Origin: Tetracentron sinense | Taxonomy: Eukaryota > Streptophyta > Magnoliopsida > Trochodendrales > Trochodendraceae | Assembly: GCA_015143295.1 (NCBI GenBank) | Contig: CM026573.1 | Coordinates: 10,080,378 to 10,144,377 of the forward strand | DNA: 64,000 bases | Direction: 5' to 3' | Shown here: positions 21,701 through 64,000 of the stretch, piece after piece | Layout of the letters: every line of letters starts with the position of its first letter | How positions within the stretch are numbered: position 1 is the stretch's first letter | The notes under the pieces: generated by a model | Database searches by the model: none | Told to the model about the DNA's origin: nothing | Seen by the model: only the letters and a program-made list of their open reading frames with translations | Made by a program: the position numbers and the translations under genes

Positions 21701-24113
21701 TCAAGAGATATAGATCTCTCAGGTCTAAGGATTGTGTGCAGACATCAAACCAATTAGTGTCTTGCATTGAAAATTACTCATTTTAATCATGACAGTGATC
21801 ACATCACCAAATATTCTCATGAGGTCCCTTAGTAAGAGTGTCATGCACCTACATGTGTGCCTGAGAGTCCATACTCTGCATATTTGAGACTCATCATGTC
21901 ATCTATATAACAACACCACATATATGGACTTATGAGAGTGAGATGTCTAGTCATCACTTTAAATCCAGAGATGTTTTAAGTTTACATATGAAGATCCCCA
22001 TCTCATGTCCATGGTTTTCTAACCATGATAAAGTTCTTCTACAATGTTGCCTAAGGAACAATCACTATCTCAGCAAGTGAGATATGATTATGTTATACCC
22101 AGTTATTATGCATGCAAGGGAGACAAAGAATATAAGCAAAAGACATTAATCTTGATTAATTCAATGTGGTATGGCTTTCGAGGACATACATAACTACCAA
22201 TCTCTCACTTGCACTCATAACCAATCATACATGTATCTCACACCCATCATATCTAGATGTTGTTCGAACACCTTTAGAGGTAACGCATTAGTTAATGGGT
22301 TTGCCACGTTGTCTGCTAATGCAATCTTTATCACTATAATGTCCCCTCTACGAAGTATATCGCGAATCAGATGAAATCTTCGCTCTATGTGCCAAAACAG
22401 CTGATGGGATCTTAGCTCAACTGCTAAAGCTACAACACCACAATTTTCAGTGTATAGGAATGGGAGACTCCATCGAGGGAACAACACCAAGCTTTTGTAT
22501 GAATTTCTTAATCCAAACGGCTTCCTTTGCAACTTCACTAGCGGCAACATAATCCACTTCTATAGTAGAATCGGTAGTGGTGTCTCGCTTGCAGCTTTTC
22601 TAACTAATGACACCTTGTCCAAAAGTGAACACAAGCCTAGAAGTGGACCTCCTATCGTCAACATCTGCGTGGAAATCTAAATCAGTGTACCCTACAATAT
22701 TCATTCAGTCTTCACCATTATACACAAGGTAATGGTGTTTGGTTCTCCTAAGATACTTGAATATGTGTTTAACTACAATCCAATGTTCGGGCCAAGGATT
22801 AACCTGATATCGGCTCACGACCCTCACGGCATGACTACATGCAACTTATCTCTAACCTATTGGAGACTTTCAAGAATAAGCAATGAACAAACATGAAACC
22901 AAAAGAAATTAAAGACATCCTGTAATATCCAGTATGGACAGGCTTATATTTGAAAATCACTCTCTAAAACATTAAATTAACGAAAAAGTAGATAGAATTC
23001 CATACTGCATATAGACTTGACACTTAAAGCACAACCAATGTAAGGTTCTCGACCTTGTTATCAGAAGATACATTTCCTTCTTACCCACCAGAAACGCTAA
23101 TTTACGTTTTCCAGATTTTCCGTGCTTTACTTCTATCTCAGAAACATAAGTATAAAAACAAATGAGAAGTCATGAATAGAATTCACAAGCTTACCAGAAA
23201 TATGATGTTCCTCAGAGATTCCAATGAAGCCATTAGAATCTGCATTCCCTTCCAGATCGGTGCTTTTACCACCACGACCACGAGCAACATACTTTGTATA
23301 ATTCACCGAAGTACTAAAGAGATCAGTGCTTCCATTAATTGTCCGAATTGCTTTATTCTGCAAACCCATTTCTCTACTTTTTAACATATCATTGTTCAAA
23401 CTACAATTCAGATTTTCATTCTCTCTTCTCCGTGGCAATGCCCTCTGCTTCTTAATCTTCCCTTTAACAAGCAATCTCAATGGAAAAACTCTAACCCCAT
23501 TATCCTCACCCAGAAACAAAAATCCAAACGAAACATTAACAAAACAAATTGGCACAGTACAGTCAATAACAGCACACTTCATCAAACGCACGCTCACCCC
23601 ATCATCCTCTTCCCCCATTTTCGCCCCAAAAATCAAAATTTTGCGAGCGGAAACCGAATACAATGCGAAAACATTAACCGAACCAGCAAGCTTCAACGAA
23701 AACCCGTGAAAAAGATCAACAACAACCCCAATTCTATCATCACAGATAAGATTCTTTTGAGTGGAACTAACTTGAGCTCTAACGAATACCTGGTTCTTGT
23801 CAAGGATCCAGAACCGGAGGAGAACCGCAGAGCCTCCGTTATGCGGCCCGGCGACGACGAAGAGGACGCGGCCGGCGGTGGAATTAGGGTTGGCATGGAG
23901 GCGGAGGAAGCAGGCGCAGGAGGAGGGAGGGGGGATTAGGGTTTGGGGAGGAGAGAGAGAGAGGAGAGAGAGAGAAGGGTAGAGGAGAAAAGAGGAATCG
24001 GAGAGAAGTAAAGCTAGAGAGGAAGAGATGGGTTCAAATAGGAGAGAGATTACCTCCGATGAGGGGCGAGAATCGGGTAAGGATAGCTTGCAAGCCTGCT
24101 GCTGCATAACCAT
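12728..24113 (-). CDS. Uncharacterised conserved plant protein, four exons, about 496 aa
   Basis: Exons: 24113-23195, 13640-13344, 13267-13142 and 12876-12728 (TAA at 12728-12730). Introns: 9554, 76 and 265 bp, all GT-AG. Every exon ends with one spare base and the next begins with two, so the frame closes without a stop through 497 codons. Exon 1 encodes a hydrophobic N-terminal half (EVISLLFEPISSSLALLLSD, later VSFGFLFLGEDNGVRVFPLR). Exon 2 contains ALSPKRFLILDSVGDIHLL, exon 3 LCISDGFYSVHTM and exon 4 IQAIFASEKIQDIIPL. Repeated short strands with G-D/N-G turns suggest a beta-propeller-like fold, which is inference. I recall similar unnamed proteins in other plants but know no function. I chose the first ATG of the long frame; another ATG lies two codons downstream. 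Intron 1 is full of mobile DNA. The joins need transcript support. Confidence 0.8.
13905..14960 (+). other. Transposon-like or promoter-like segment inside intron 1
   Basis: It begins TAAAGTGGTGTTTGGTTAGA, a start typical of plant PIF/Harbinger or hAT elements. It continues into pyrimidine-rich leader-like DNA and an exon-like stretch ending CGGACAG|gtgagt near 14450. No transposase motif and no matching right terminus were found, so the class is open. Confidence 0.3.
15290..16181 (+). pseudogene. Copia gag with CCHC knuckle and start of protease
   Basis: A broken frame (15290-15650) matches the N-terminal gag: ILASMDNVLQ, then HVLKMMGFINELE. A continuous frame (15648-16181) has LREPFNQFVMNYNMNK, a lysine-rich linker and a clean CCHC knuckle (CHFCGKPGHWKRNC, about 15958-15999). 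It ends at WCVDSGVTS, the D-S-G active-site start of the Copia protease, soon followed by a frameshift. Stops at about 15460 and at the gag junction make it non-functional. Confidence 0.85.
16218..17440 (+). repeat. Two direct copies (654-bp period) of Copia pre-integrase/integrase DNA
   Basis: Both copies start ATTGGAAGNTATAACTTAGT and run through NLISVTKLMSTS-type coding, the LWHLRLGHVN-type histidine region, the CEPCLQGKMSRLSFPGK cysteine region and GPMNHQSKGEF. They differ by scattered substitutions and small indels. The junction CATTTGTAAAGTGTTAGA is also found at the start of the third copy near 20160. Confidence 0.85.
18360..18383. repeat. (CT)n microsatellite
   Basis: About 11 CT units within the Helitron. 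Confidence 0.85.
18495..18923 (+). mobile_element. hAT-like MITE, family A, copy 3 (complete)
   Basis: The ends are CATACTTGCAGG and CTAGTAACTATG. A perfect 8-bp duplication gttttgaa lies at 18487-18494 and 18924-18931. At 429 bp it is almost the same length as the copy at 8400. It is nested inside the Helitron, so it jumped after (or travelled with) that element. Confidence 0.9.
20147..20620 (+). pseudogene. Copia integrase, third partial copy and continuation
   Basis: After the Helitron the sequence repeats VLDLIHSDVCGPMNHQSKGE. It then continues past the duplicated zone: FHNEVEKQLGKSIKTLRFDR, GGEYLSGDFIDYLKSHGILS, TPQHNSVSERRNRTFLDTV and, after two stops at 20539-20544, LPISFWEYTLQIAIYLLNS. 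It contains the second integrase aspartate (here FDRGGEY) and the SERRNRT glutamate. It ends abruptly near 20620. Confidence 0.85.
20625..22199 (-). mobile_element. 3' LTR of a minus-strand Copia element (limits approximate)
   Basis: A purine-rich tract (AAGTGAGAGAT on minus, 22200-22212) directly follows the RNase H stop codon, and TGG then begins the presumed LTR at 22199. The other limit is placed where Copia element 1 coding stops, near 20620. No second LTR is in the window to confirm either boundary. There is no coding inside. Confidence 0.5.
22206..22830 (-). pseudogene. Copia RNase H, C-terminal pol (minus)
   Basis: On minus, 22830 to about 22560 encodes HIFKYLRRTKHHYLVY, VGYTDLDFHADVDDRRSTS and EVDYVAASEVAKEAVWIKKF in broken frames. 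The open frame to 22215 has VALAVELRSHQLFWHIERRF, ADNVANPLTNALPLKVFEQH and the terminal GVRYMYDWL, typical of the Copia pol end. Upstream reverse transcriptase is missing, cut off near 22830. Confidence 0.85.
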
Positions 24114-31147: not shown

Positions 31148-31377
31148 TGTTATTAGAGAAAGAGGATCATTTCAAGGGGATTTGTTTTTATATGTTGGAG
31201 TCTATAATTAGTAGTTTCTTATTCCTTGGGATTATTGTATTCCTATTTAATCGAGGGGTTTTTATTGTGAGCTCTTATGAATAATATATCTCTCTCCTCT
31301 TTCTCTTGTGGAGTAGGCTCTTTGCCGAACCACGTAAACATCTTTCTTTTGTGTGTTTGTTTATTTAGTTTTTTTTA
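31148..31377 (+). repeat. 5' LTR of Copia element 3
   Basis: 230 bp, from TGTTATTAGAGAAAG to TTTAGTTTTTTTTA. The terminal CA has decayed. A TATA-like AATAATATAT lies near 31281. Confidence 0.9.
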
Positions 31378-31879
31378 TAGTATCAAAGCAGGTTGCTGCA
31401 TTTAGCTATTGAAGAAGAAGGCATTGGATGCTCTACGGTTTTGTTGAGTTTTTGAACAGTTTTTCGTCCATTCAAAAAACAAAAAAAATCTCCAACAGTG
31501 CTACTGTTGTGTTGCTGTGTTGCAAGAGACAACTGTAGAGGAGTAGTCTTGCTGCATAGAAGAAAGAGCTTTGTGCTCTTTGACTTTTCTTGGTTTTTTG
31601 GAAGCATTCAATGATACAAAGTACAATCTGAATCCGTATGATATGTGCCTTTACACCTATTCTATGTCAAGTTCTTGCAAGGCAAGTTATATGCGAATGC
31701 TTTAGCCCTTGAGAAGAAAAAATGCGAGGATCAAGGTAGAAAAGAATTGCGGCTGCTCCGTTTTTTGGAATTCTCATCTTCAACCTGTGATTCTTTAATT
31801 ACTCTTATCCAACATTATTGCTAACTAGGTGAGATCTATCCCTCTTTGCTTTTTTTTGCTTTATTGAGGTTTGTCTTTT

Positions 31880-32795
31880 ATGGCAGAAGGAAATAGTAAT
31901 CCTAGTATGAAGCTCTTTTTTTTTTTTAATTGACTAAATTATGTCTCTTGGTCTAGAGTTGTCTCCTTATCGCTCGGGGGAAAATCGAAACTAGGGCATA
32001 TTAATGGAAAAAATGGTGCACCTAAATTGAACCCTAAGTTTGCAGAATGAGAATCAAATGATCAATTAGTTATGTCTTGGCTTCTTAATTCTATGGAGCC
32101 CAAGATTGCAAAAAAATCTTCACCTTCTCTGAAACAGCGAAGGACCTTTGGGACTTGGTTAAGGATCTGTATGGCCACCAAAATAACGCTGCTCAGATTT
32201 TTCAATTAAAACAAGAGATTGCTGAATGTAAACAGGGAGAAAAATCTTTTACTGAACATCTTGGAAAACTAAAAAGCATGTGAGATGAATTAACCTTATA
32301 TTGTCCGCCCACGACTGACCTTAAAACTTTACAGAAAAGGGTTGAGCATGACAAAGTGTTTCAATTATTGGCTAGTTTAAAACCTGAGTATGATAGTCTT
32401 CAAAGTCAAATTCTAATGGGATCAAAAGTGTCTTCTCTTTCTAGTGTTTGTACTATCCTTAATCAAGAAAAAGCCAAAAAGAAAGCAATGATTGTTGCAT
32501 CAAAAACCATTAGTACACACTTCGAATCTAATGCTCTAAGAGTAGATAGAAAGAAAGACACCAATAAACAGGTTGATAATACTGGTAGGAAACAATATTT
32601 TTCTCAAGGACGGGGAAAGGACGTCATTGTGATCATTGTAATAAGATTGGTTACACTAAAGATTGTTGTTGGATTCTACATCCCCATCAGAAGCCCAAAG
32701 TTAATAAGATGGTTAACAATGTCACATCAGATACCGATACTGTCACATTGGATACCTCTATCTTAGTTGGGAAACTAGCAAAGCTTCTCCCACAA
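31880..32795 (+). pseudogene. Copia gag with zinc knuckle
   Basis: The frame starts MAEGNSNPSM and shows YVSWSRVVSLSLGGKSKLGH, then QLVMSWLLNSMEPKIAKK, with stops at two or more places in the first 200 bases. A clean stretch follows: ELTLYCPPTTDLKTLQKRVE, then FQLLASLKPEYDSLQSQIL. A frameshift lies near 32620, and the knuckle CDHCNKIGYTKDCC appears in the next frame. It cannot make a full Gag. Confidence 0.88.
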
Positions 32796-34410
32796 CTTAG
32801 TAAGCCTGAATCATCCACTTCAGAACCTTCACCTTCTACCCGTGTTTCAGGTAACCTTAAAACATTTTTTTCATCTATCTCTAATAGTTGTACTTGGATT
32901 GTGGACTATGGTGTCATAGATCACATGATTAATGATTCTGACTGTTTGTTAAATTTTACTTCCAAAGGTGATAAGCAAACTGTTTCTGTTGCCAATGGGA
33001 CTTCGGTCCTCATTCAAGGTCATGACATTGTTAATATTTTTCCCGATTACCCTAACTCAGAGGCTCATTATATTTCTTCATTTTCTTCAAAATTATTATC
33101 TATTGGGAAACTCACTAATATCCTGACTTGTGACATTATTTTTTTCCCCACTTCCGTGGTACTTCAGGATCGAGTTACGGGGAAGAAGATTAGTGAAGGT
33201 ATCTTTTCGCATTACCTACTCCATTAAACCAATTAAGTATTGAATGTTGATTCCAATAAAAAATAGTGTGTCTGGCACAAGCGTTTAGGCCATCTGTTTG
33301 ATCGCACATCTTTACTTTTTCTCACTGCATCTCGTAATTCTTATATTTGTGAGATATGTCAATTTTCCAAATAGACTCGTTTACCTTTTGATTCCTCTTT
33401 ATCTGTGTCTGATAAACCTTTTGAGTTGATTCATTCTTATGTTTGGGGCGCTGCTCCCATAGACTCTTATGATGGTTATAAGTATTTTGTCACTTTTATT
33501 GATGATTGGTCTCGTGCTACATGGATCTATTTGTTAAAATTTAAAAGTGAGGTTAACTCTGCTTTTAAGAATTTTCATAATATGATTGATAATCAATTTA
33601 ATGCCCGTGTTAAGATTCTCCGATCAGATCATGGTACCGAGTTTATTAACAACCTTTTCTTAGATTATTTGAACAGTCAAGGAATTATTCATCAAACCAG
33701 TTGTGTAGGCACTTCACAATAAAATGGTGTTGCCGAAAGAAAAAATAGACATCTTTTAGAAACTACGAGATCTCTAATGTTTCAAATGCATGTTCCCAAA
33801 CAATACTAATCTCATGGTGTCATTGTCTCTGCTTACTTGATAAATAGGTTCCCTGTTCTTGGTTATAAGTCTCCTCTTGAAATTCTAAAAAATCGAACAA
33901 TTGACCTCTCTCATCTTCACATTTTTGGATGTTTTTATTATGTTCATGTTTCTGCATCTCATCGGGATAAACTTGATGCTCGTGCTACATGATGCGTTTT
34001 CTTTGGTTATTCTACCACCCAAAAGGGATACAAATGTTATGATCCTAAAAGTAAAAAGCTTTTTATATCTCGAGATGTTCATTATGTTGAAGTTGAATCT
34101 TTTTTTCAACCTTAGTCTAAAGATGTCCTTGGGGTTTGGTCCCAGGGTGAGTGTTTTACTGACATGGTCCCTCTTCCAATTGTTAGTTCTATCCCTAGTC
34201 AGTTCCAAGAACCAGTTGTAGTGCCTCCATCTGAGTCATCAGTCATTGAAAATTCAGAAGATACCTCACCTGAAGTTCCCGCAATAACCGCTCCCAAAGT
34301 CTCTCAGAGGCGGACAACCAGAATTTCTCATCCCCTTACTAAGCTAGCTACACGACTTTTATACCTATCATGTTGCAACTTTTCTTATCCAAAATCATTT
34401 GACCTATAAT
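32796..34410 (+). pseudogene. Copia protease and integrase
   Basis: The protease site reads WIVDYGVIDHM, where the family has D-S-G, so the serine is replaced by tyrosine. The pre-integrase histidine/cysteine region (CVWHKRLGHLFDR ... CEICQFSK) follows with stops. The integrase core has HSYVWG instead of HSDVWG (first catalytic aspartate lost), LRSDHGTEF (second kept) and GVAERKNRHLLE (glutamate kept), with a stop just before the last. The tail includes LHIFGCFYYVHV and CVFFGYSTTQKGYKCYDP. Confidence 0.9.
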
Positions 34411-34479
34411 AATGTGTCTTCATCACATTTAGACTTTTTAAGTTCTATCTCCAATGAACCCAATAACTTCTATGAAGCC

Positions 34480-35940
34480 ATGTCCAACCGATTTGGAGAA
34501 AAGCTATAGATGAAGAACTTCAGGCTCTTGACAAAAACCATACATGAGACATTGTCAGATTAATTACCAAAAGAAAAGAAACTTATGGGATGCAGATGGG
34601 TATATAAAATCAAGTACAACATTGATAGAACTATTAAGAGATATGAGGTTAGATTAGTAGCAAAAGGTTTCTCACAGACCTATAGAGTTGACTATAAGGA
34701 AACTTTTGCTCCTCTTACAAAAATTAATACAATTCAGATCCTTCTATCAGTTGCTATTAATCATAATTGGTCATTGTTTAAATTGGATGTTAAAAATGCT
34801 TTCCTAAATTGAGATTTGGAATAATAAGTTTATATGAGCCTCCCACCAGGACATCCTCAGGAGTCTCAAATGAACCTTGTCTGCAAACTAAATAAAGCCT
34901 TGTATGGTCTTAAACAATCTCATAGAGTTTGGTATGCAAAATTAAGTTCTATTCTCATAGGTAGTGGGTTTGGACGAAGTTCAGCTGATTCCTCCTTATT
35001 TACTAAGCAAAGTGTTTCTGGTCTTACGATTGTTTTGGTTTATGTGGATGATATTGTCATTACAGGGGATGATAGTCAAGAAATTACTAAGTTGAAGTTT
35101 CTTCTTCACAAGAAATTTGCTATCAAAGATTTGAGAATTTTAAAATATTTTCTAAGAATGGAAATTGCTCATGCAAAGAAAGACTTATTTTTGAATCAAA
35201 TAAAGTATGTCTTGGACTTACTGCAGGAAATAGGGAAATTAGGTGCAAAACCTGTCGAAACTCCCATTGACGATTACGGTAAACTTGGATTGGATGGAGA
35301 ACTCTTAGAAAATGTCCATACATTACAAAGGTTGGTTGAAAAATTAATTTATTTGACTATCACTCGTCCAAATATTACATATGGAGTTAGTTTGGTTAGT
35401 CAGTTTATGCATGCTCTAATGGTCAGTCACATGTATGCAATTAACAGAATCCTTCAATACCTGAAGGCTTCACCTAGTCGTGGAATATGGATGCGGAGAA
35501 ATGGTCATATCAAGGTCATAGGTTAGTCTGATGTAGATTGGGTAGGGAGCCCAGTTGACAGACGATCTACTACTGGGTATTGCATTTTTGTTAGAGGTAA
35601 TTTGGTCACTTGGAGAAGTAAAAAACAAGTTGTTGCTCGTTCCAGTGCTGATGCTGAATATAGGGTCATGACATCTACCACAAGTGAATTAATATGGATT
35701 CAAGCTCTCTTGTGTGATTTGGGAATCAAGACTTCTCAACCTAAGGATATATTATGTGATAATCAAGCTGCTATACACAGCGCTTCCAATCCAGTGTTTC
35801 ATGAAAGAACCAAACGTATCGAGATAGATTGTTCGAAAGAAAGTATAAACCAATATTATCTGGACTCCATATATTCGTAGTGATGACCAACTAGTGGATA
35901 TCTTTACCAATGGATTGTCTTCAACAAAGTTTCATGATAT
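34480..35940 (+). pseudogene. Copia reverse transcriptase and RNase H
   Basis: GCRWVYKIKYNIDRTIKRYE opens the polymerase. VDYKETFAPL and LDVKNAFLN (first catalytic aspartate) follow, then stops at 34810-34830. A long clean stretch has NKALYGLKQSHRVWYAKL and the YVDDIVITG active site. RNase H shows DWVGSPVDRRSTTGYCIF, ARSSADAEYRVM and DNQAAIHSASNPVFHERTK. At least three stops or shifts break the frame. Its length matches the family. Confidence 0.92.
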
Positions 35941-35990
35941 CTTGTCCAAGTTGGGCTCGATCGACATTTACGCTCCAACTTGAGGGAGAG

Positions 35991-36218
35991 TGTTATTAAA
36001 GAAAGAGAATCATTTCAAGGGGATATGTTTCTATGTGTGAGAGTCTATAATTAGTAGTTTCTTATTCCTTGGAATTATTGTATTCCTATTTAATTGAGGG
36101 GTTCTTATTGTGAGCTCTTATGAATAATATATCTCCCATTTCTTTCTCTCGTGGAGTAGACTCTTTGCCGAACCACGTAAACATCTTTTCTTGTGTGTTT
36201 GTTTATTTAGTTTTTTTA
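35991..36218 (+). repeat. 3' LTR of Copia element 3
   Basis: 228 bp, directly after the polypurine tract TTGAGGGAGAG. It pairs with 31148-31377. Confidence 0.9.
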
Positions 36219-36543
36219 TGTACGCGGTGGGTCCTTAGCTTCGGCCCCAACGTAGGTGCGGTGGGGACCTCTGCAGAGCTCTAGGTGTTGGGGCCCAATG
36301 CTCCCAGGCAGGATGTGGGTCACCTACCTGCATTCCCTTTTTTCTAAGCAAAAAAAAAACTGAAAACCGCCAAAGCTTTCCACAAAAAAAATGTCATTCC
36401 CATTTTTTAAGACACTAGTGGAGTAGTGCAAAGGATAATGCTAGCCCAACCCACCACAGTCCAGAAGTCCACCTTTTCTAAAATTTACCATTAACCAAAA
36501 TAAAAAAAGGGGGGGGGGGGGTGGTGGAAGAGATGTTCATCTA

Positions 36544-38170
36544 TCAGTTTGTAAAGTTAGGAATGGTGGCCTGAGGTTCAGTAGCTTTAGCTGCCGGCGA
36601 CGGTTCGACGGCCGGAGAGGGAGTTACCGGCGTACCCAGAAGCTCAGCAGGCAAATCAGAGATCCCTTTTAGATAAAACGTATAAAACAGCTTGAAGGGG
36701 AACACAATCTGCTGTAGCTTCACCTGTCCATACGCCCCTTCAAAGATCCCCGTTCCACCAGTCACCGTTAAATACGTGTCCTCATATGTCAGATACGCTC
36801 CCTGCACCGACACGTGTCCGTAATCCCCAAAGTAGAAGGTCTCCTTTCTTCTCCGTACGTGTTGGATCAACACACAGATCCCTGCCGTTATCCCCAGCCG
36901 CTTCTCCAAGTTTCCGCTATAGATCTGTAACATGGAAACAAATTATAATTTTGAACACCCATATGGAGACCGTACTGTCTCGGCCCTAACCAAGACTATC
37001 CCACTACCTACTCATCATCATGTGAAAGCTTTTTCGTTTTCAAATAAAATAATTACTTTTTTTTTCTTTTGTGCTGATAAAAGTGATATTAGTCCCACGT
37101 AATACCAATCCATACATTCAATAATAAGGGGAGCCCAAATTTGAACTCAAGATATCTGGTTTACAATTCATCCTTTGACCACTCAGCTACACCCCGAAGG
37201 TTATTCAGGTTATAACCTAAATCATGTTATTTTAATTACACTTAAGATACAATTAAGATAACATGATTTAGGTAATTATTTAACTTGATTCAATTCCTAT
37301 CGTTTATTCAAGTAATTTGATTTCAAGCAAATAAAGTAATTCACCAATATAGTTCATGATTCAAGTTAAGTTATTTTAAATGATTCAGTTTAAATATATA
37401 CTAAATCAGTTTTTATCCGATTAATAGGTGGCCAAATGTTAGATTAGACACCCCACCAACAAGATGGTCTTCGTTAGGGCGAGACCATATAGTCTCACAA
37501 GTTTTATCTTATAAATTTAGGAAAATGGTAATGAGACCGCAAAGGGCTGAGACCACACCATGATGGGCATGCCATGCAGAGCTCTCAAATTTTTAAAAAA
37601 TGAATTTAATAAAATTTTAAGATCCGTACATCACAAAAGACAGTGTGGGGTCTAAATAAGTCCTATAATTTATACTTTAAAAAAACAACAGTAACAAAAG
37701 AGAATCTTTAGGAACTTGCCTTATTACTGAAGGGCACGAGATCGCCGAGGGAATTGACGGATTTCTGGCTTAATCGGAGGTAAGCTGGGCTTCCACGGTC
37801 TCTTTCGTTTATCTCATAAACGCAGAGTTCTTGAACTTTTGCTGAAACAGAAAATAAAAAATGAAACTTGTTAGATGATTTTATTGTAATCGGTGTTTGA
37901 AGGGTTTGGTAAAGAGAGAAAAACGTACTGGGTCTTGAAGAATCTGGTGGGGTACTCTCTTTTTTACAGAAGAATGATTTGGTTGTGAGGTTCTTAGAGT
38001 TTCTCTGAATTGAGGGATTTTGATGGGTAGTTTGAAATCTGGGGTTTTGGGTTAAAAATGGATGTGGGAGCTTAAAGCCTAATTGGGTTTGTGGGGAAAG
38101 AAGGGGGTCTTGAGATAGGTAGTTTGAGAGAGGAAGAGATGGCTTTGAGAGCTGAGCTCGAAGACGCCAT
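36544..38170 (-). CDS. AOC: Allene oxide cyclase, chloroplastic; two coding lesions
   Basis: Converts the unstable 12,13-epoxy-octadecatrienoic acid made by allene oxide synthase into cis-(+)-OPDA, the committed step of jasmonate synthesis in plastids. Exons: 38170-37929 (transit peptide), 37841-37720, 36924-36544. Intron 1 (87 bp) is GT-AG; intron 2 (795 bp) starts GC. Exon 2 holds [15 protein letters not shown] and VPFSN, exon 3 ITAGICVL and [10 protein letters not shown], so Glu23, Asn25, Pro32, Asn53, Cys71 and Tyr105 of mature AtAOC2 numbering are all present. The C-terminus ends IPNFTN as usual. Two oddities. The ATG frame reaches a stop after 32 codons, and the transit peptide continues one frame over; a one-base change in the C run at 38103-38107 would explain it. 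Between IQHV and FYFGDYGH only six residues remain where the family has thirteen. It is a damaged gene or pseudogene, unless the frameshift is a sequence error. Confidence 0.9.
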
Positions 38171-46616: not shown

Positions 46617-49600
46617 TCAACCCCCGGCAAAAAGCCTAAGAGCATCACGGCGCTTTACCAAAATACGTCTACAATCCCAAGGCTGAAGAAAAAAGACAGA
46701 AAAAGAGTCTATAGAACGAATAGAAGTCCCGAAAGAAGCTAAACTATGGGCATAGGCATTACCTCCCCTCAGAAGATGTTTCACTTGGAAATTATCGGTC
46801 CTTCCCAAGCTCGAGCGGATATCTTCAACCACAACACATACCTCCCAGTGTAAGTCTGATGCAGGGCTGTTAATCATCTCCACTAAAACTAGAGCTTTAG
46901 ACAAAATCATTACTGGGCTCCACCTCCACTCTAAGGCCAAATTGATTGCACACGGAATTACTTCCACCTCGGCTGAGGACCCATCTACATGAAATTGTAT
47001 CCAAGAAAAGGGAAATGGGATTTTAGGAATAGCCTTAGCACCGGTCGTACTAGCCATAGCATCCCCCCCACTCCTCGGTGAACCACCACACAATTCCAAA
47101 ACCAACCTGTCGGCCTGACTGCTTGAGCGAATAGGATCTATAAAAGTCCCTTGAATGAGGCTAGAGTTCATGGCCTTCCAAATGCTCTAGGCTATGGATG
47201 CGAGCGAGCTAAGCATCCACTCTTTAGTCTCTCTCGATAAAGAACAAATGACCCAGGAACACCACCACGTCTTAAACAAACCAAAACCCTCCCCTCCAGG
47301 CCGAATTCCCACCTGCGATGCTAGCCAAGTACACCGAGCATGCTCACACTCAACAAACATATGCATAACTGTTTCTGGCCCCTTACCACATAGCGAACAG
47401 GTGCTTCCTTCCAATATCCGACGCTTGAATAATGCTTGATTTACTCCGAGAGCTTGGTGCATGCAACGCCAAATAAACCAAGCAATTTTTTTTGGCAGTC
47501 CAAGGTCCCAGATGGCCTTCCAGCTGGCAGAAGAGGGGACCTCTGAAGTGGAAGCCCTCACCATTCTCCCCGTTGGATGAAGCTCTCTTAACCAATGATA
47601 TCCAGATTCAACCGAGTAGGTACCATTCTTCTCATAGTGCCAGATTCTTCGATCGGGTCTGCCTTGATGACTGTAAGGGATGCGAGATATGTGACTCACA
47701 GTATCCTTTGGAAAAACCTGAGACAACTTTACAATATCCCATCCCATAGAATCAGGAAGCAAAAATTCCCCCACCCTGTGCCATGGACAATTCTGCCCCC
47801 TAGGAATGTGGGGCCGAAACCCTGCCAAAGATGGAATTCACTCGTCGAGCCAAACTCCAATGGACTCCCCATTACCCACTTGCTAGCGAAGACCAGAAGC
47901 AAGAGTTGATCGACCTGCCAATATGCTCCTCCAAGCCCAAGATGGCCGATACCCAACTTTAGCTTCCATAAAATCCCTCCTAGGGAAATAAATACTTTTT
48001 ACCAGCCGACTCCATAAGGAGGTTGGGTTCTGAATAATCAATCACCCTTAACTTGGCCAACAGAGCAAGAATAAACATGGAGAGCCCTCTGAACCCCCCA
48101 CCTCCCATCTCCTTGCTATGGCAGAGAGTATCCCAGCTAACTCGGTGAGCCTTCTTGCCCACTTCAGAGTATCCCCACCAAAAATCTGCCATGAGAGAAG
48201 AGATCTCGCGACACACGTAATTGGAGAGCATGAAGCATCCCATGGCATATGAAGGGATAGCTTGAATAACCGCTTTCAATAATACTTCTCAACCAACTTT
48301 GTTTAAAAACTTCTCACGCCATGAAAGAAGTTTGGCCTTTACTCTATCAATAATGAAAGAAAACAATTGCCGCTTAGATCGACCAAAGGTCGTAGGCAGC
48401 CCCAAATAAACTCCAGCTTGATCCAAAATTTTCATGTGCAATATACGGGAGAGAATACGATGAAACTTATTTGTGGTATTAGGACTAAACATCACACCGG
48501 ATTTCTGGAAATTAATCTTCTACCTGGAGACACAACAAAAATCTTCGAGTACCTTCCTCATCCCAAACGTATACTCCCGAGTATCCTTAGCAAAAAGAAT
48601 ACTGGGAGACAATGGGGCTAGTCCACTTGATATGAATACCATACAACTCTTCCTCTGCTGCACGATCTAAGTGATGCGATAAAGTGTTAAGAGGCCAAAA
48701 TAAAAAGATATGGAGATAATGGATCTTCCTGCCGAAGACCTCGAGCCGGTATAATGAGCCCCTTTGCTTCCCCATTGATCAAAATAGAGTATTTCACTGT
48801 TGTAATACACTGCAAAAGGAGACCTATCCATCGCTCACACAACCCCAATTTCCTAAGCAGCTTATCTAAGAAACCCCACTCCAACCTGTCATACGCTTTA
48901 TTCATGTCGAGTTTTAACGCCATCAGAAACTCAACACCTTTTTTCTTCCCTTTCGAATGATGGAGAATTTCATGGGAAACTAGCACATTATCCAAAATAC
49001 TATGCCCCGGGAGAAAAGCTGATTGGGCAGGATGGACCAACTCCCCCAAAATGCTCCGCAATCAATTTTCCAAAACCCGAGCGCAAATCTTATACAGAAC
49101 ATTACATAGACTAATAGGCCTGAGTTGGCCCAAATGTTGCGGATTAGGCACCTTGGGAATTAACACTATGTTAGTGAGGTTGATCTGTCAAAGCATAAAA
49201 CCCTCATTGAAGAAAGCCTCAACTGCTTGGATAACTTGAAGGCCAACTATCTCCCAGTAATGCTGGTAAAAAATGGTTGGCATTCCGTCTTGACCAGGAG
49301 CTTTAGTTGGGCCCATCTGAAAAGTGGCATCCTTGATTTCCGAATCCAATAAGGGCCTACATAAGTCAAGGTTCATAGCCTCTGAGATTTTTCGGGGGAT
49401 GCCTTGGAAAACTTCATTACTATTCGGAGGATTAGAAGACATGAACAAATTAGAGAAATGTTGTATAATGCACGCCTCCACTCCTGATGGGGAGGTGTAT
49501 TTGATCCCATCCTCAGACCGAATCATATCCAATCGGTTCTGTTGCCGCCTTTGCAGGATCAAAAGGTGGAAAAATTTTGTATTCTTGTCCCCTTCTCTGA

Positions 49601-50647
49601 GCCACCTCACCCGGGACTTTTGGGCCCAAAAAGTTTCCTCCTGCTCAAGAGTCCTCTCTAAATTATTTTTCAGTTCATCCTCAACGACCTTAGTAACTGC
49701 AAACGATCTCAAACTTTGTTGAAAACTCAGCTCCTTCAATAAGGCCTCTTTCTTGTGGTGGATATTTCCGAATTCATCACGATTCCATTCGGCTAGTCTC
49801 ATGCGGCAATAATTGATTAGTTTGCAAAGCTTGAACATTTCAGACCCTGAAACTGGCACCTTCCACGTCCTCTTAACAATATCGGTACCATCCTCCTCCT
49901 TGGTCCACATCGCTTCAAATTTAAAACTACCCCTCCTACTCTCCTTCTTTGGCTTGAGATCTAGCTTAATAGGACTACGATCCGATGCATATATAGGATG
50001 GTGAAATATTGTGGCCATAGGAAATCGGACACACCAGTCGCTTGAACACATTGCTCGATCGAGTCTCTCTTTCACATTAGCCCATGCTACCCTATGGTTA
50101 TTCCAAGTAAATGGGTTCCCATGGAATCCCAAATTCATAAGAGCTTGCTGCTGAACAAAAGAGGAAAAAGGAGCCATTTGAAAGGCTGACTTTGGTAGGC
50201 CTCCTTCTTTCTCATAATTGAATAGGATATCATTAAAATCTCCTATCCACAGATACTGGTTGTTCAAGGCTGATTTTGAAACCATCGCCTCCCAAAAGTC
50301 TTTCCTTTGAGATTCCATCGATGGACCGTAAGTTAAAAATAAATCCCATGGCTCCCCTCCACTGGTTTCCTGAACAATAACATGAATCAGGTTGTCCTAC
50401 ACCGATTGGGATCTGACCACCCATGGCCCCTTCCACATCACGCATAAACCACCTGCTAATCCTTGAGGATCTTAACTAGCAAATGATCAAATTTTAGGCT
50501 ACAGTACAACTTCTCCATTTTATCAAACTTAGCTTTAGTTTCTATAAGAAATACAAGTTTGGACTGCCGCCTACGATTAAGCTCCTTCAGAGTCCAAATT
50601 GTCAGGGGTTGCCCGATCCCCCGATAATTCCAACTTATGATATTCAT
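46617..50647 (-). pseudogene. LINE ORF2: endonuclease, reverse transcriptase, RNase H
   Basis: Starts MNIISWNYRGIGQPLT (endonuclease N-terminus, 50647). YLWIGDFNDIL and FTWNNHR follow, and the family's SDH motif reads SDRSPI. A long clean frame (50318-49188) runs into the polymerase: TKAPGQDGMPTIFYQHYW, then [31 protein letters not shown] and [16 protein letters not shown] in the next frame. The FADD active site reads FAKD (about 48600). After it come AIPSYAMGCFMLS and WWGYSEVGKKAHRVSWDTLC, the zinc-binding segment (47187-47828, CSLCGKGPETVMHMFVEC) and RNase H (46617-47171, FHVDGSSAEVE). Several frameshifts. It overlaps the ORF1 stop by ATGA. Confidence 0.93.
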
Positions 50648-52107
50648 GATTGTGGGAGGTGTTGATCCTTGTCAGTCACCTCCTCCACATCTAGCTGCTC
50701 TACTGCAACCTCTACCCTCCATTCAACATGGCTAGAGCTCACGAAGCAATGTCGGGCTATACCAACCTCATCTGTCCTTGCTACTAACTGGCGAATGGGA
50801 AACCAGGGGGGATGATCACATTCGTCCAAGTCCATTCCTTCCTGTAGATAAGGGTGCCCGTGGTTCAACTTTCTTTTTTTCCTCCTCCTATTACAGGCCT
50901 GATTGATAAGAGCTTGGGCCCTCTTAGCCCCAGCCCGCCTATGGGCCTGAACGATTGGTTCGGAACCGGCCCGCACAAAAGAAGTTTGAATCTCGACCCA
51001 ATTAGCTAGGGTCTCCGTTATGGGTGCCCGACGCTCAGAAATTATTCCTCCCCCGATGACTCCAGATCCAAGATATGGATATCGAGCGCCTGTCCTCTAC
51101 TCTGCCTTGATGTAACCTCTTGGTCTGCTTCCATATAAGTGTCGCTTGGAGATGTCCCCCCATCTGTCTTCATGTGCCCCAACGGTCGGATTAAACCAAA
51201 ACGACAGGGCTGAGCTTTCCTTTCCAAGATATCCTCCGTACTTTTGGGGACTGCAGCATCCCCCTTCCTTGCCCCCATTTCCAGAAAGCTTGGTTCACTG
51301 TGAAATCTCCCCTGAGAAGACGAAGCTCCTTCCTCCTTCTGGCTAATCTTCGACGACAATGAACCCCACAGGTGAGACCTAGTAAAGTCTGCTCGGAGCC
51401 CTGGTCCAAATACCCCTCCTTCCGCGTCGGACTTCTCTGTTAAACAGTGCTTCCCCACATGCCCTAGCAGACCACATCTAAAGCAAAAGTTTGAGAGTCG
51501 TTCGTACTGACTTCTATAGGGGCTGGCTTCTTTTCCTTCCTGAACAGCATGATCTTGTATCTCAAAGGCTTGCGGGTGTCGATGAGTATCTTGACTCGAA
51601 TAAATTCCCTTTTAAACTTTCTCCGTCCAGTTCCCCTCCCAACCTTTCCCCGGCCCTTTGAATGATGAGTTCGGCTGGTAAACTGTGCAGCTGAGTCCAA
51701 AACGGGATCTGATAAAAGAGTATGTCCTGAGGGGTACAGTCAAGAGCCCATTCCTTTTATTGGAGAAGTTGTCCATTGAAAGACCAGGGTTCATTCATGA
51801 GAACCCTCTTGACATCCCTCAGGTTTTGGAACTTGAACATCGTAATGTCTTCCGGAAGATGGACAACCTGAACCTCTTCTATCAGATTCCACGCCAGAAT
51901 AGTTGTCGACCTTGCCGCTGTACTGTTGAGCAGTCTATCTGTTAAAAATCTTCCTAGTAAGCTCAGTTTGGACCGATTATGTGCCTCTTCTACGATATCA
52001 TCCTCCAACTCTACCACCACCTTATCATTTTCTGCTAATGACAGCCTCCATATCTCCTCTAATAAGTCTCGCAGAGTCTCCTCGCCGCTATATACCAGTT
52101 CCGTCAT
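50644..52107 (-). pseudogene. LINE ORF1 (DUF4283, zinc knuckle)
   Basis: The N-terminal frame (52107-51757) has the DUF4283 pattern: RFLTDRLLNSTAARSTTILA, then DITMFKFQNLRDVKRVLMNE and PWSFNGQLL. The next frames carry TRKPLRYKIMLFR and the knuckle CFRCGLLGHVGKHC (about 51441-51482). They are followed by a low-complexity tail to the TGA at 50644-50646. At least three frame changes. The stop overlaps the ORF2 start codon (ATGA), as in many plant L1 elements. The product would be the RNA-binding partner of ORF2. Confidence 0.88.
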
Positions 52108-52333
52108 TAATAATGAAGGTTTTCCACCAAATGAGCAAGAAGATCCTTCTCCGAGAGGAAGAGATTAAAGAGATGAAAAGATATTCTCAAAAGTTATTTG
52201 AATGAGATTGCTTACATGACCCCAAACTAGGCGGATAAACTAAGTTGACAAAATCAAAGAACATTGTTATTTTTGCATGATTAGAATAAGTAGAGTAAAA
52301 TAGGATGAAGATGAGAAAAACTCTAGGACTGAA

Positions 52334-59160: not shown

Positions 59161-59421
59161 CTAGTTTTATTTTTACCCCTTCCCCTAGACTTTACAAGTT
59201 AGCTTTGACTCACTTTTGAAAAAAAAAAAATCGAATCGAATCAAAATTTTAGCTAGAGGAAAGTTTCCCACCAACAGAAGTGTCCATCAAGGATTTTTCT
59301 ATATTTGATCTTTTTGGTTTTCAAGTTATTCATAATCGCTCCAGGGAAGGAAGTATTGTCTGCATTGACTCAGCTTATCAGGAGCCCCTATTTACTGAGG
59401 TCTAGAAAAAACATACTCGGG

Positions 59422-61660
59422 ATGGAAGAAGGCAATGGTCCCGTTCGAGCAAAATTTATGCAAGAAACCAAAGCTGGTTTACAAGAAACTAAGGCTGAAT
59501 TAGCCGAGGTAAAAAGAAACATTCAGAACTTGACACTCATGATGCAACGACTCTTGGCTCAAATGGACCAGAATGAGGGACCAGAGAACCCTGGAACATC
59601 TAAAGTACCTCCCCCAAATTCTCCAAAGTGAACGCGGACAGATGCTCCACCACCACCTCCACCTCCACCACATGCAGATCAAGAAAATCCGGTCTACCTT
59701 GAAAAAAAAGAAGCATGGCGTCATGAAAGACCCAGAAGCGCGCTAGCCACACAAATAGAAAAACTAGCAAAAGATCTAAAATCGGTCAAAGGCTCTGACC
59801 CATTTTCCAAGATTGGTATTGACGATCTCTGCCTGCCTGTATTCTGTATCAAGTCTCCCGCCAAATTTTGAGATCCCCGAGTTCAACAAGTACAATGGTC
59901 AGGGTTGTCCCATGTCACATTTAAAACTCTATGGAGGTTCCTTGGGAGTGTATGGGAAGAACGAGCAACTAATGTTGTAGCTTTTTCAAATGAGTCTATC
60001 GGGAGGAGCCCTTCAATGGTTTTCTCAACTTGATCACACCAGAATCAAGTGTTGGATGGATTTGGCAAAAATGTTTGTGGCTCAATATCGGTACAATATG
60101 GAGGTAACTCCCACCCGGTTAGATCTTCTCAAAATGGAGAGGAAGAAATCAGAATCATTCAGGGAGCATGCATACCGGTGGCGCGATAAAGCTGCCAAAG
60201 TCAGACCCCCTATGATGGAGGAAGAAATAGTCAGTACATTCGTCTCCACGTTGAAAGCCCCATACTATGATCGTCTAGTGACACAGACGAAATCAGGCTT
60301 TACAACCATCATCCAATACGGAGAGGGTATTGACGAAGGGGTCAGGACGGGTAAAATAATGGATCATGCTACATTTCGCACCGTCATGGACACTTATGCA
60401 AATGAGGGACCTACTGCCAAGAAGGCTTACACCGGCAACAAGAGAAAAGAAAGCGAAGCATCCGGAACAGCAGCTGCTACGTATAGGCAAGTTGCCAATA
60501 CCCAAAATATTCCACCTGCGCCCTTCCAGTTTCAAACTCCAGTAGTGAATTCGGGGTATGTCTAGCCCTTCCAAGCACCGATTCCACAATAACAACAGCC
60601 ACAACGTCAGTACCAGAATCAGGGTCAGAACCAAGGATATCAAAGAAGGTATCGTCATTTGGATCCCCTCCCCTCTCGTTCATCTGAAATGCTCCGCACT
60701 TTGCTAACAGAGGGCATTGTAAGTCCGGTCGAGCCAGGTGTGCAAGATACAACCTCCAAATTCTACAATGCGAATCAGAATTGTGCATACCATATGAATG
60801 CTCCAGGGCATTCTACGGACAGGTGCCAGATACTAAAGCACAAGATCCAAGATTTGATCGAGAGCAAGAGGATCATCATTAAACCACCAACTTCCTCTGG
60901 TATCCTTCAGAATCCCTTTCCCACTTACAATAACAACGAAGCATCTACCTCTCAGACCATTAATGCCCTTGAATGGGACGATCTTGATTTTGATCCCTCT
61001 CAATTGATTCAAAAACCTGGGACGAAATTCAGGGTTTACATCAACAACAGAAAGGCTTCACCCCCAGTTAATACGGTCAATGACCAGCAACCTCCAGTCC
61101 AACGGCTGCCGGTTGTGTTTAATTGGCCTTCCGCTACTGTCACTGCTCCCAAGACAATCGAATTTGACTGGCCTACTCCTTCACTGAACCAATCATCGAA
61201 GAAAGTTGTGTTTGATTGGCCCATTCCTCCAAGCAACCAAGTTCCTACCCCCCGACCGGTCGTATTTGACTGGCCCACTCCACAACCCCCTGCGAATCTG
61301 AAAAGAATGTCTTTTAACTACAACAACATCCGCCATCCAAAGAGGGGAGAGGCAAAGGGGGTCATCGCCGATGTTGACAATCTTAACCGGTATGGGCAGG
61401 TCTATAAATCCGACCCGTCTAAAGCCAAGGGACAAGGAAAAATGAATGAGACAGCAGGGGATAAAGAGGCCCGAGAGGTCAGAGAAAGGGAAGCCAGGGA
61501 GGCAAGGGAAAAAGAAGGGAGGCAAAAGAGGGAGAAAATGAGGAAGAGCACTGAAAGAAGGAAGAGCAGAAAAAGAACCAGGAAAGAACTCGGAGGTACA
61601 AGATTAGTGACGAATCAGTCTTGGAGGCCCTCAAACAGTCCAAGAAAGCAGAGTATTTAA
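59422..61660 (+). pseudogene. Gypsy gag polyprotein region
   Basis: Starts MEEGNGPVRAKFMQETKAGL; this coiled-coil-like N-terminus is cut by a stop at 59629-59631. After frame changes the Retrotrans_gag domain (59990-60565) shows MSLSGGALQWFSQLDHTRIK, VAQYRYNMEVTPTRLDLL and ESFREHAYRWRDKAAKVRPP. The next frame (60659-61660) has the pseudo-knuckle CAYHMNAPGHSTDRC. Then four repeats of a short FDWP motif (about 61110-61290) and a highly charged R/E/K helix (61440-61590) follow. It cannot yield one Gag. Confidence 0.85.
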
Positions 61661-61671
61661 TCCTAGAATAG

Positions 61672-62439
61672 ATGAACAAGATGTCAGCTCAAATTTTCAT
61701 TCTCGGTTTGCTCTTAGCTTCCCAATTACATCGTAAGACCTTACTGAAAGTTCTAGATGAGGCTCAAGTTCCGTCGGATATCTCTCCGGAAGACCTGGAA
61801 AAGGTGGTAGGTAACATCACAGCCCTTACCACAATCAATTTTGATGAGGAAGAATTGGGTCCTGAAGGGACCAATCATGCAAATGCACTACACATTACGG
61901 TGTTGTGCAACAAAATGATTGTGGCAAGAGTCTTGATTGATAATGGGTCAGCCCTAAATGTTTGCCCACGAGCCACCATCCAAAGTCTTGAAATTAGTGA
62001 AGAAAACATCAAACCCAATAGGATGACTATCCGTGCTTTTGACAGCTCTAAGAAGCAAGTTATAGGTGAGATTGATTTAGAAGTGACCATAGGCCCACAT
62101 AATTTTGATATCACCTTTCAAGTGGTAGACATTCCGGCTGCCTTTAATCTCTTACTTGGTCGTCCCTGGCTCCATTCGGCTGGGGCAGTACCATCATCCC
62201 TTCATCAAAGATTGAAATATATCAAGGACGATGAGGTTATCACAATTCTCGTAGAAAACATGCCCTCGATTAGACACCAATCTGATATTCCATTCATTGA
62301 TTTGGAATATCCGAAAGAGGTCCCCGGGTTTCATTCTTTTGAATTCACTTCGGTGAACAATATACCCAGGATGCGAGATTTGATGGAGATAGGAAGCATT
62401 GATGTTAATACCATGGTAACAAGAATAATGACTAGCTAA
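61672..62439 (+). pseudogene. Gypsy aspartic protease
   Basis: A 255-residue open segment in good condition. The active site reads ARVLIDNGSALNVCPRAT, with D-N-G where most aspartic proteases have D-S/T-G; this form is common in this lineage. ITFQVVDIPAAFNLLLGRPW and LHSAGAVPSSLHQRLKYI follow, the conserved second half of the fold. It would process Gag-Pol. It is intact on its own but has no in-frame link to gag. Confidence 0.88.
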
Positions 62440-63490
62440 GGCTATTTGGAAGGTAGAGGCTTAGGCCGAAATCTTCAAGAGATTATCACTCCTCTGATAC
62501 CAAAATCCTCACCCCTTAGGTTTGGTTTATGGTATAAGCCAACTGCCGAGGAGCAAATAGAAAAATCTAAAAAGTTGAGAATGGCAAGGCTTGATGAGTC
62601 TCAGAAAGGCCTGGGAAGGATCCCTCACATCAAGGAAACCTTTCCCTATCCATCTTATGTCGTTCGGCCTGAGCCGGAAAGTCAACCCAAGGTTAGAGTT
62701 GAATCAGAAGACGATGATATATTTGATTTGTCACTTCTCTTTGAAGAAGAGACATTAAATGGTTTTAACTCTTTTGTGGTGTTTAGTGCTTCAGGACCAC
62801 AGGGAATTTCAAATGAGGAAGAGCAAGATGGTTGTGAGATAATGATGGTCAATGATCGGTGGGATAATGAATAGGAGAGATCAATTCGCCTGTTGCAAGC
62901 GAAAGAAACACTCAAAAATTGAGAAACAGTTTCCTGATGGTGCCCAGCCAACCGTGGTGAGAATACTGAAATGGCCCCTGAATCAATTCTGCCCAGCCAA
63001 CCACGGTGAGAATGCCAAAATGGCCCAAAAAAAAAAGTTTGTTAAATGAAGGATTGCTACTGAGGGATGGGACTTCGTCCTCGGCTAGCATTAATTTAGG
63101 TCATTTTATAAAAAATCAAAAAAAATACTTTCCGTTTTCCTAGTCAGCTACCCAGGCATGGGCCTTCGACCTCGGCTAGTATTAATTTAGGAGGCCACCT
63201 TTCAAAAAATAAAAAAAATTGTCAGTTTTCCAAATACTGGCTATTTTCAAGAACAACAAAAAATGAACTTTAAAGAATGTGGAAAAGAAGATATAACTGA
63301 GGCAAAAACAGATAAATATGACTCCACCACCGAACTCAACTTTGAGCTCATGGAGCTCGAAGAAGAGGGCGATGAAGAAGATTTGGAACCTCCAAAAGAG
63401 ATTCTAGATCTTCTGGAATGTCATGAGTAGGCTGTTCAACCTAACATAGAAGAGACCGAGTCAATAAATCTTGGTACTGAGGAAAAACCC
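62440..63490 (+). pseudogene. Gypsy linker between protease and reverse transcriptase
   Basis: Includes a G-patch-like EGRGLGRNLQEI, an acidic DDDIFDLSLLFEEE segment, a stop at 62872-62874, and then low-quality DNA with a repeated CCCAGCCAACCNNGGTGAGAA (62941 and 62993) and GGGNCTTCGNCCTCGGCTAG (63067 and 63159). No function can be assigned. Confidence 0.6.
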
Positions 63491-63498
63491 TAAGTAGT

Positions 63499-64000
63499 GA
63501 AAATCGAAACTCAACTCACCACCCAGCAGCGGGCCAATCTGATTGAACTTCTGAAGGAGTACAAGGATGTTTTTGCCTGGTCATATGAGGACATGCCGGG
63601 ACTTGACACGGATTTAGTTGTACACCGGCTCCCACTCATTCCTGAAGCTAAGCTGGTCAAGCAGAAACAAAGGAAACTCCGACCTAAATGGACCTTGAAG
63701 ATAAAAGATGAAGTCATGAAGCAATTCCAAGCAAGTTTTCTCATAGTTTCTTCATATACAGAATGGTTAGCTAATGTGGTTCCGGTGCCAAAGAAAGACG
63801 GAAAAGTCCGGATGTATGTTGACTACCGTAATCTGAACAAAGCAAGTCCCAAGGATGATTTCCCTCTCCCTCATATCAACATCCTCGTCGACAACACTAC
63901 AGGCCACGAAACACTCTTCTTCATGGATGGTTTTTCAGGATACAATCAGATAAAAATGGCTGAAATAGACAGGGAGAAGACTGCTTTCATAACTCCTTGG
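63499..64000 (+). pseudogene. Gypsy reverse transcriptase, N-terminal part (cut by window edge)
   Basis: An open frame runs to the edge: LLKEYKDVFAWSYEDMPGLD, HRLPLIPEAK, KQKQRKLRPKW, NVVPVPKKDGKVRMYVDYRN, LNKASPKDDFPLPHINILVD and FFMDGFSGYNQIKMA, including the first catalytic aspartate (FMDGFSGY). This part is undamaged, but the polyprotein upstream is broken. Confidence 0.9.

Follow-up and report, generated by a model that had tools for sequence, protein, structure and literature searches.

Can a gene that has kept every catalytic residue of its enzyme, but whose reading frame is broken, still make that enzyme? Allene oxide cyclase (AOC) works in making the defence hormone jasmonate, and the 64-kb stretch of Tetracentron sinense DNA analysed here (the window; C23:10080378-10144377 of a host genome of 1.16 Gb in 1479 contigs) poses this question with a three-exon AOC gene on its minus strand, at positions 38170-36544. 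Judged against its intact relatives in the same genome, this copy most probably represents the real and very recent loss of one DNA-duplicated AOC gene.

A broken AOC gene beside two intact paralogs

The limits of the window copy are exact, with the ATG at 38170 and the end of the TGA at 36544. Pfam family PF06351 matches exon 3 with 217.3 bits and a stretch of exon 2 with 57.9 bits, far over the curated cut-off of 31.2, so that the AOC identity is not a matter of chance. Moreover, six solved AOC sequences match exon 3. A family search of the genome matched six stretches out of seven candidates, which are two conserved parts of three genes: the window copy and, on contigs C4 and C10, two AOC genes that are intact (C4:44718139- and C10:28027881-), the latter two being the answer to the count of other copies that the original prediction had raised. 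Both have exons of 247, 122 and 405 nt and encode 257 aa. The window copy is arranged as follows:

37929..38170, minus strand: exon 1 (transit-peptide region), 242 nt, against 247 nt in both intact copies; ATG at 38170-38168
38072..38170, minus strand: frame open from the ATG, 32 codons, then TAA
38082..38110, minus strand: frame break in exon 1 (net -5 nt against each paralog) whose position is ambiguous; the interval takes in a run of five Cs (C5) at 38103-38107
37842..37928, minus strand: intron 1, 87 nt, GT-AG
37720..37841, minus strand: exon 2, 122 nt, unbroken
36925..37719, minus strand: intron 2, 795 nt, GC-AG, against 84 and 81 nt in the intact copies
36544..36924, minus strand: exon 3, 381 nt, against 405 nt in the intact copies
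36838..36856, minus strand: exon 3 lesion, one base missing near 36855 and 20 bases between 36839 and 36838, turning thirteen residues into six

All three genes share the three exons, the places and phases of the introns, and the catalytic residues, and exon 3 of the window copy is 82% and 81% identical in DNA to that of C4 and C10, respectively. The window copy differs from the intact paralogs by its frame breaks and by its long intron 2, which has grown through sequence containing repeats. C4 and C10 further have in common an extra codon near the C terminus, which is absent from the window copy and from the three solved AOCs aligned (AtAOC1, AtAOC2, and PpAOC1).

The splice sites of the window copy look intact. 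Its intron 2 donor (37719-37714, minus strand) is the non-canonical AAG/GCAAGT; the same GC donor occurs in the intact C4 copy, while C10 has GT. Intron 2 holds a SINE-like repeat at about 37105-37195 (minus strand) with tRNA-like boxes recognized by eye, adjoined by an imperfect inverted repeat at 37212-37276; genome-wide, the SINE-like repeat has 40 scored matches among 151 candidates, itself included. About 22 nt past the AOC stop codon, a run of 13 Cs is followed by a T run (36509-36521, minus strand).

The enzyme frame has no start codon

The reading frames bear out the original prediction that the ATG frame closes after 32 codons, at a TAA, and that the AOC domain resumes one frame over. 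The C5 run named there as the likely site of a one-base indel is likewise present at 38107-38103, but its role is less certain than proposed: compared with either paralog, the break removes 5 nt net. At the aligned position no C5 run exists in C10 or in C4, the latter having one farther along. Frameshift-aware alignment to C10 places the break at 38083 or, under the lowest penalty that was applied, divides it into three smaller steps lying from 38095 to 38083; alignment to C4 places it at 38101-38098 and opens a further gap of six bases at 38082. A one-base indel in the C5 run would thus be only one of several possible placements.

In exon 3, the proposed loss of one base followed by about 20 more reappears in the DNA alignment to both paralogs as -1 at about 36855 and -20 at 36839/36838. 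As a result, the six residues RRRKET stand in place of thirteen, a net loss of seven codons; the thirteen-residue form occurs in all five solved-AOC alignments listed (six sequences matched) and in both intact copies, as the original prediction had it for the family. A single in-frame loss of 21 nt is ruled out, for the two gaps are separated by 17 nt that are identical to C10 but shifted by one base relative to the frame.

Damage to the transit peptide had been predicted as well, and exon 1 is indeed broken, but the damage is wider. Across the three spliced exons no ATG lies in the enzyme's frame, the four ATGs of the spliced sequence all sitting in other frames, and directly upstream the enzyme frame is closed by a TAA that overlaps the ATG. 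Exon 1 contains no in-frame CTG, GTG, TTG, or ACG; its only in-frame near-cognate starts are three AAG and one ATT. Because the spliced sequence offers no start codon in the enzyme frame, the damage extends beyond the transit peptide, and a continuous coding frame leading from a start codon through a transit peptide is absent. Any transcript would be expected to yield only a peptide of 32 residues, and hence no enzyme, in which case AOC activity would come from the C4 and C10 genes.

Retention of the catalytic residues does not imply an active enzyme

In the alignment to 2BRJ numbering, the window copy retains all of the residues that we take to be the six catalytic ones of AOC (E23, N25, S31, P32, N53, and C71), in agreement with the original prediction, which left residue 85 unmentioned. 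Over exon 3 the copy is 70% identical to Arabidopsis AtAOC2 (PDB 2BRJ, 4CQ6, 2Q4I), from which it differs by the missing in-frame start codon and by six unrelated residues in place of residues 78-90. In the three solved AOCs aligned and in both intact copies, the stretch lost here is for the most part conserved, and it includes the aromatic residue 85; Phe85 lines the AOC barrel. With 13 residues reduced to 6, the hairpin would need to pair in a new register. No kept catalytic residue falls in the lost part, so that their presence is what a recent loss predicts. The best reading of the alignment is that the conserved catalytic residues reflect how recent the loss would be rather than activity.

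Positions of the trimer core and interface are named in PMC4844422, with numbers five higher than in 2BRJ. Compared with AtAOC2, the window copy keeps L35, L45, L48, I74, K147, E123, and R29 (PMC4844422 numbers minus 5), while E75 is Q, as it is in both intact copies. According to that paper, AOC mutants that break the trimer are inactive, and heteromers of AOC isoforms tune activity in Arabidopsis.

With exons 2 and 3 open and constrained, and with the catalytic and, but for E75, the interface positions kept, the locus might still make an AOC-like protein whose hairpin is seven residues shorter, by shifting frame within exon 1 or by starting translation in an unusual way. We regard this as quite improbable: AAG and ATT are all that the enzyme frame of exon 1 offers in place of an ATG, and the product would lack a largely conserved part that includes residue 85. 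A more specific version, which we consider very improbable, supposes a +1 ribosome shift in exon 1, possibly where CUU precedes UAA at codon 33, giving an AOC barrel seven residues shorter that might act as a trimer partner tuning the two normal isoforms. Constrained substitutions are compatible with a +1-shifted gene still in use, but no such +1 recoding is known to us from a nuclear gene of a plant, which counts against an active enzyme. The divergent copy with a shortened barrel strand, offered by the original prediction as one of two readings, is therefore not supported as a working enzyme.

The mature domain evolved under constraint, probably until very recently

The other of these readings, a recent pseudogene, gains support from the substitution record, alongside the two intact copies and the missing ATG in the spliced AOC frame. 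Codons were divided into a mature domain (159 codons, broken stretch excluded) and a transit-peptide part (73 codons). In the mature domain, the changes unique to the window copy fall 27, 9, and 1 times on codon positions 3, 1, and 2, and comprise 29 synonymous and 8 nonsynonymous changes, compared with 22 and 8 for the intact copies pooled. A three-branch codon model gives omega values of 0.061 for the window branch and 0.067 for the paralogs, with omega = 1 rejected for the window branch (2dlnL 56.5). In the transit-peptide part omega is 0.42 for the window branch and 1.09 for the paralogs; the test against 1 is borderline (2dlnL 4.16), and this part therefore says little.

Relaxed constraint after a loss is not detected on the window branch. 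The 95% limit on a neutral last share of the branch lies near 0.077, equal to about 16 neutral substitutions in 696 nt, so that at most about 8% of the branch was neutral. Usually, one indel accompanies 7 to 10 substitutions; at that ratio, three lesions suggest a neutral share of a few percent, inside the limit.

These data fit a history in which a third plastid AOC copy, DNA-duplicated with its introns in an old segmental or whole-genome duplication, would have encoded a constrained and presumably working enzyme for nearly all of its existence under strong purifying selection, until small frame-breaking deletions disabled it very recently. Selection would have stopped only then. The duplication is the weakest step. 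As for an unprocessed pseudogene, the disabling lesions are absent from the intact paralogs and the introns are kept; the retained introns rule out a processed pseudogene or retrocopy.

An older AOC relic provides a control

The genome contains an older AOC relic on C4 (C4:49601900-49603000, positions 151-621, or about C4:49602050-49602520), which the DNA search had given as a partial match at 49.60 Mb and which spans part of exon 1 to part of exon 3. Like the window copy it is AOC-derived, contains introns, and is frame-broken; unlike it, it is truncated and heavily decayed, with many breaks and a near-neutral substitution pattern. After poorly matching stretches were dropped, 104 well-aligned codons of 154 aligned remained, on which the changes unique to the relic number 12, 10, and 9 at positions 1, 2, and 3 (23 replacing, 8 silent). 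On 149 stop-free codons, poor ends included, its omega is 0.83, and omega = 1 is not rejected.

On the 65 mature codons common to both, the window copy has 4 nonsynonymous and 10 synonymous changes and the relic 17 and 7 (Fisher p = 0.018). A stronger but unmatched contrast between the mature domain of the window copy and the relic (Fisher p = 2.2e-5) was set aside, since it compares different codon sets. Our weighing of the explanations is unchanged by the weaker matched control, because it rests on the codon-model omega test and the neutral-share limit. The relic looks neutral on its codons, and the mature domain of the window copy does not.

That the window copy might itself be an old pseudogene is suggested by its several lesions and by the repeats in intron 2 and just downstream. 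Such an age is extremely improbable given that the data reject neutrality over more than about 8% of the branch, that the splice sites look intact, and that the shared mature codons contrast with those of the relic.

Two short matches on C6, at C6:12864700-12865700 (positions 433-551) and C6:12616681-12616789, have equal scores and lie about 250 kb apart. The former, the one that was read, is an AOC C-terminal fragment; both are possibly C-terminal fragments from a local duplication. Outside this genome, no AOC relative was confirmed among 26 pattern matches in genome_contigs and 134 in viral_contigs, as expected for a plant gene. Among the papers listed by the literature searches, none is about an AOC pseudogene, as judged from titles and abstract openings.

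Assembly error and other points against a recent loss

The main rival to a real loss ascribes the breaks to errors of assembly or consensus, or to a null allele, rare or heterozygous, that the assembly picked, with the normal C23 copy of the species intact. Although unlikely in our judgement, it would explain why substitutions have accumulated as in a living gene. Moreover, small indels make up two of the lesions, a C run is touched in one placement, and exon 3 has only one exact copy in the assembly. However, neither the 20-nt loss nor the base missing after CGTA lies in a long homopolymer, and the contigs carrying the three AOC genes are 34 to 58 Mb long. Genes elsewhere read cleanly, without stops in the 14 best rows of one neighbour search and the 4 full-length rows of another (query included in each), but as rows rank by score and broken genes fall lower, this control is weak.

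Several further observations weigh against a recent loss of a DNA-duplicated copy. Three or more lesions with almost no excess of neutral substitutions also fit consensus or assembly error. When the transit part is added, giving 94 shared codons in all, the window copy and the relic do not differ significantly (15 nonsynonymous and 15 synonymous changes in the window copy, 19 and 7 in the relic; p = 0.10). Exon 3 is open in frame as it stands, and intron 2 supplies an ATG in the same frame (36933-36931); a product starting there would lack exon 2 and hence five of the six catalytic residues. Synteny between C23 and C4 amounts to one weak, broken match; a match on C3, likewise broken, is slightly stronger (E 1.6e-9), and one on C1 is weaker. 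Finally, two neighbours common to C4 and C10 have no counterpart near the window, the nearest C23 matches listed being weak ones at positions 11.25 Mb and 9.19 Mb of that contig (for the latter, 109 of 303 candidates were scored).

The synteny match in question links the window gene at 23136-24113 to a place on C4 that agrees in side and strand and lies 42 kb away from the AOC gene there (E 6.8e-9). Around their AOC genes, C4 and C10 have at least three other coding places in common, in the same order, which makes these two AOC genes a segmental pair. That the window copy is a remnant of an older duplicated block is only a lean from these comparisons. The gene at 23136-24113 (minus strand) is a 326-codon open frame initiated by Met, with no Pfam match at E 0.1; in the genome it matches only itself at full length, and three further matches are partial and broken.

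A probable early stage of duplicate gene loss

If the recent loss of the third AOC copy is real, the locus shows a jasmonate-pathway duplicate just entering decay, with a bound on the time since its loss, and one genome would hold a small decay series of two intact copies, a recent loss, an old relic, and small fragments. It also carries a warning, namely that where loss is recent, little can be concluded about activity from a complete set of catalytic residues. Should the lesions prove not to be fixed, AOC dosage could be studied with this locus as a natural null variant. The abstract of PMC7775554 describes relics of lost duplicate genes as rare or transient. The window copy resembles the fractionation losses after whole-genome duplication in plants treated there in that one of several duplicates is lost, and differs in that it would have been caught early. 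Gene loss of this kind is ordinary, and what would be uncommon, if such relics are indeed rare or transient, is the early stage.

Neighbouring transposable elements and other features of the window

Just downstream of the gene lies a retroelement with long terminal repeats (LTRs):

31148..36217, plus strand: Ty1/copia-type LTR element, its 3' LTR ending about 330 bp beyond the AOC stop codon

Its LTRs are 7.5% different (about 92% identical), or about 0.039 per site per lineage. The dead-time bound for the AOC copy is about 0.024 per site (0.077 x 0.944 / 3), so that the insertion probably predates the AOC loss, although LTRs may evolve faster. A causal link between insertion and loss would be speculation. 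Within 2 kb upstream, CACGTG is absent from the window copy but occurs once in C4 (-177) and twice in C10 (-239 and -362), a contrast to be read with the caveat that one hexamer in 2 kb can arise by chance.

A tRNA scan of the window found no tRNA. Elsewhere in it, the open frames at 46620-52164 (minus strand) look like a LINE, with Exo_endo_phos at 23.1 bits, just under the cut-off of 24.5, and those at 59257-64000 (plus strand) look like a Gypsy-type element, with an aspartyl protease at 16.2 bits, below the cut-off of 24.3; both class names come in part from reading the translations.
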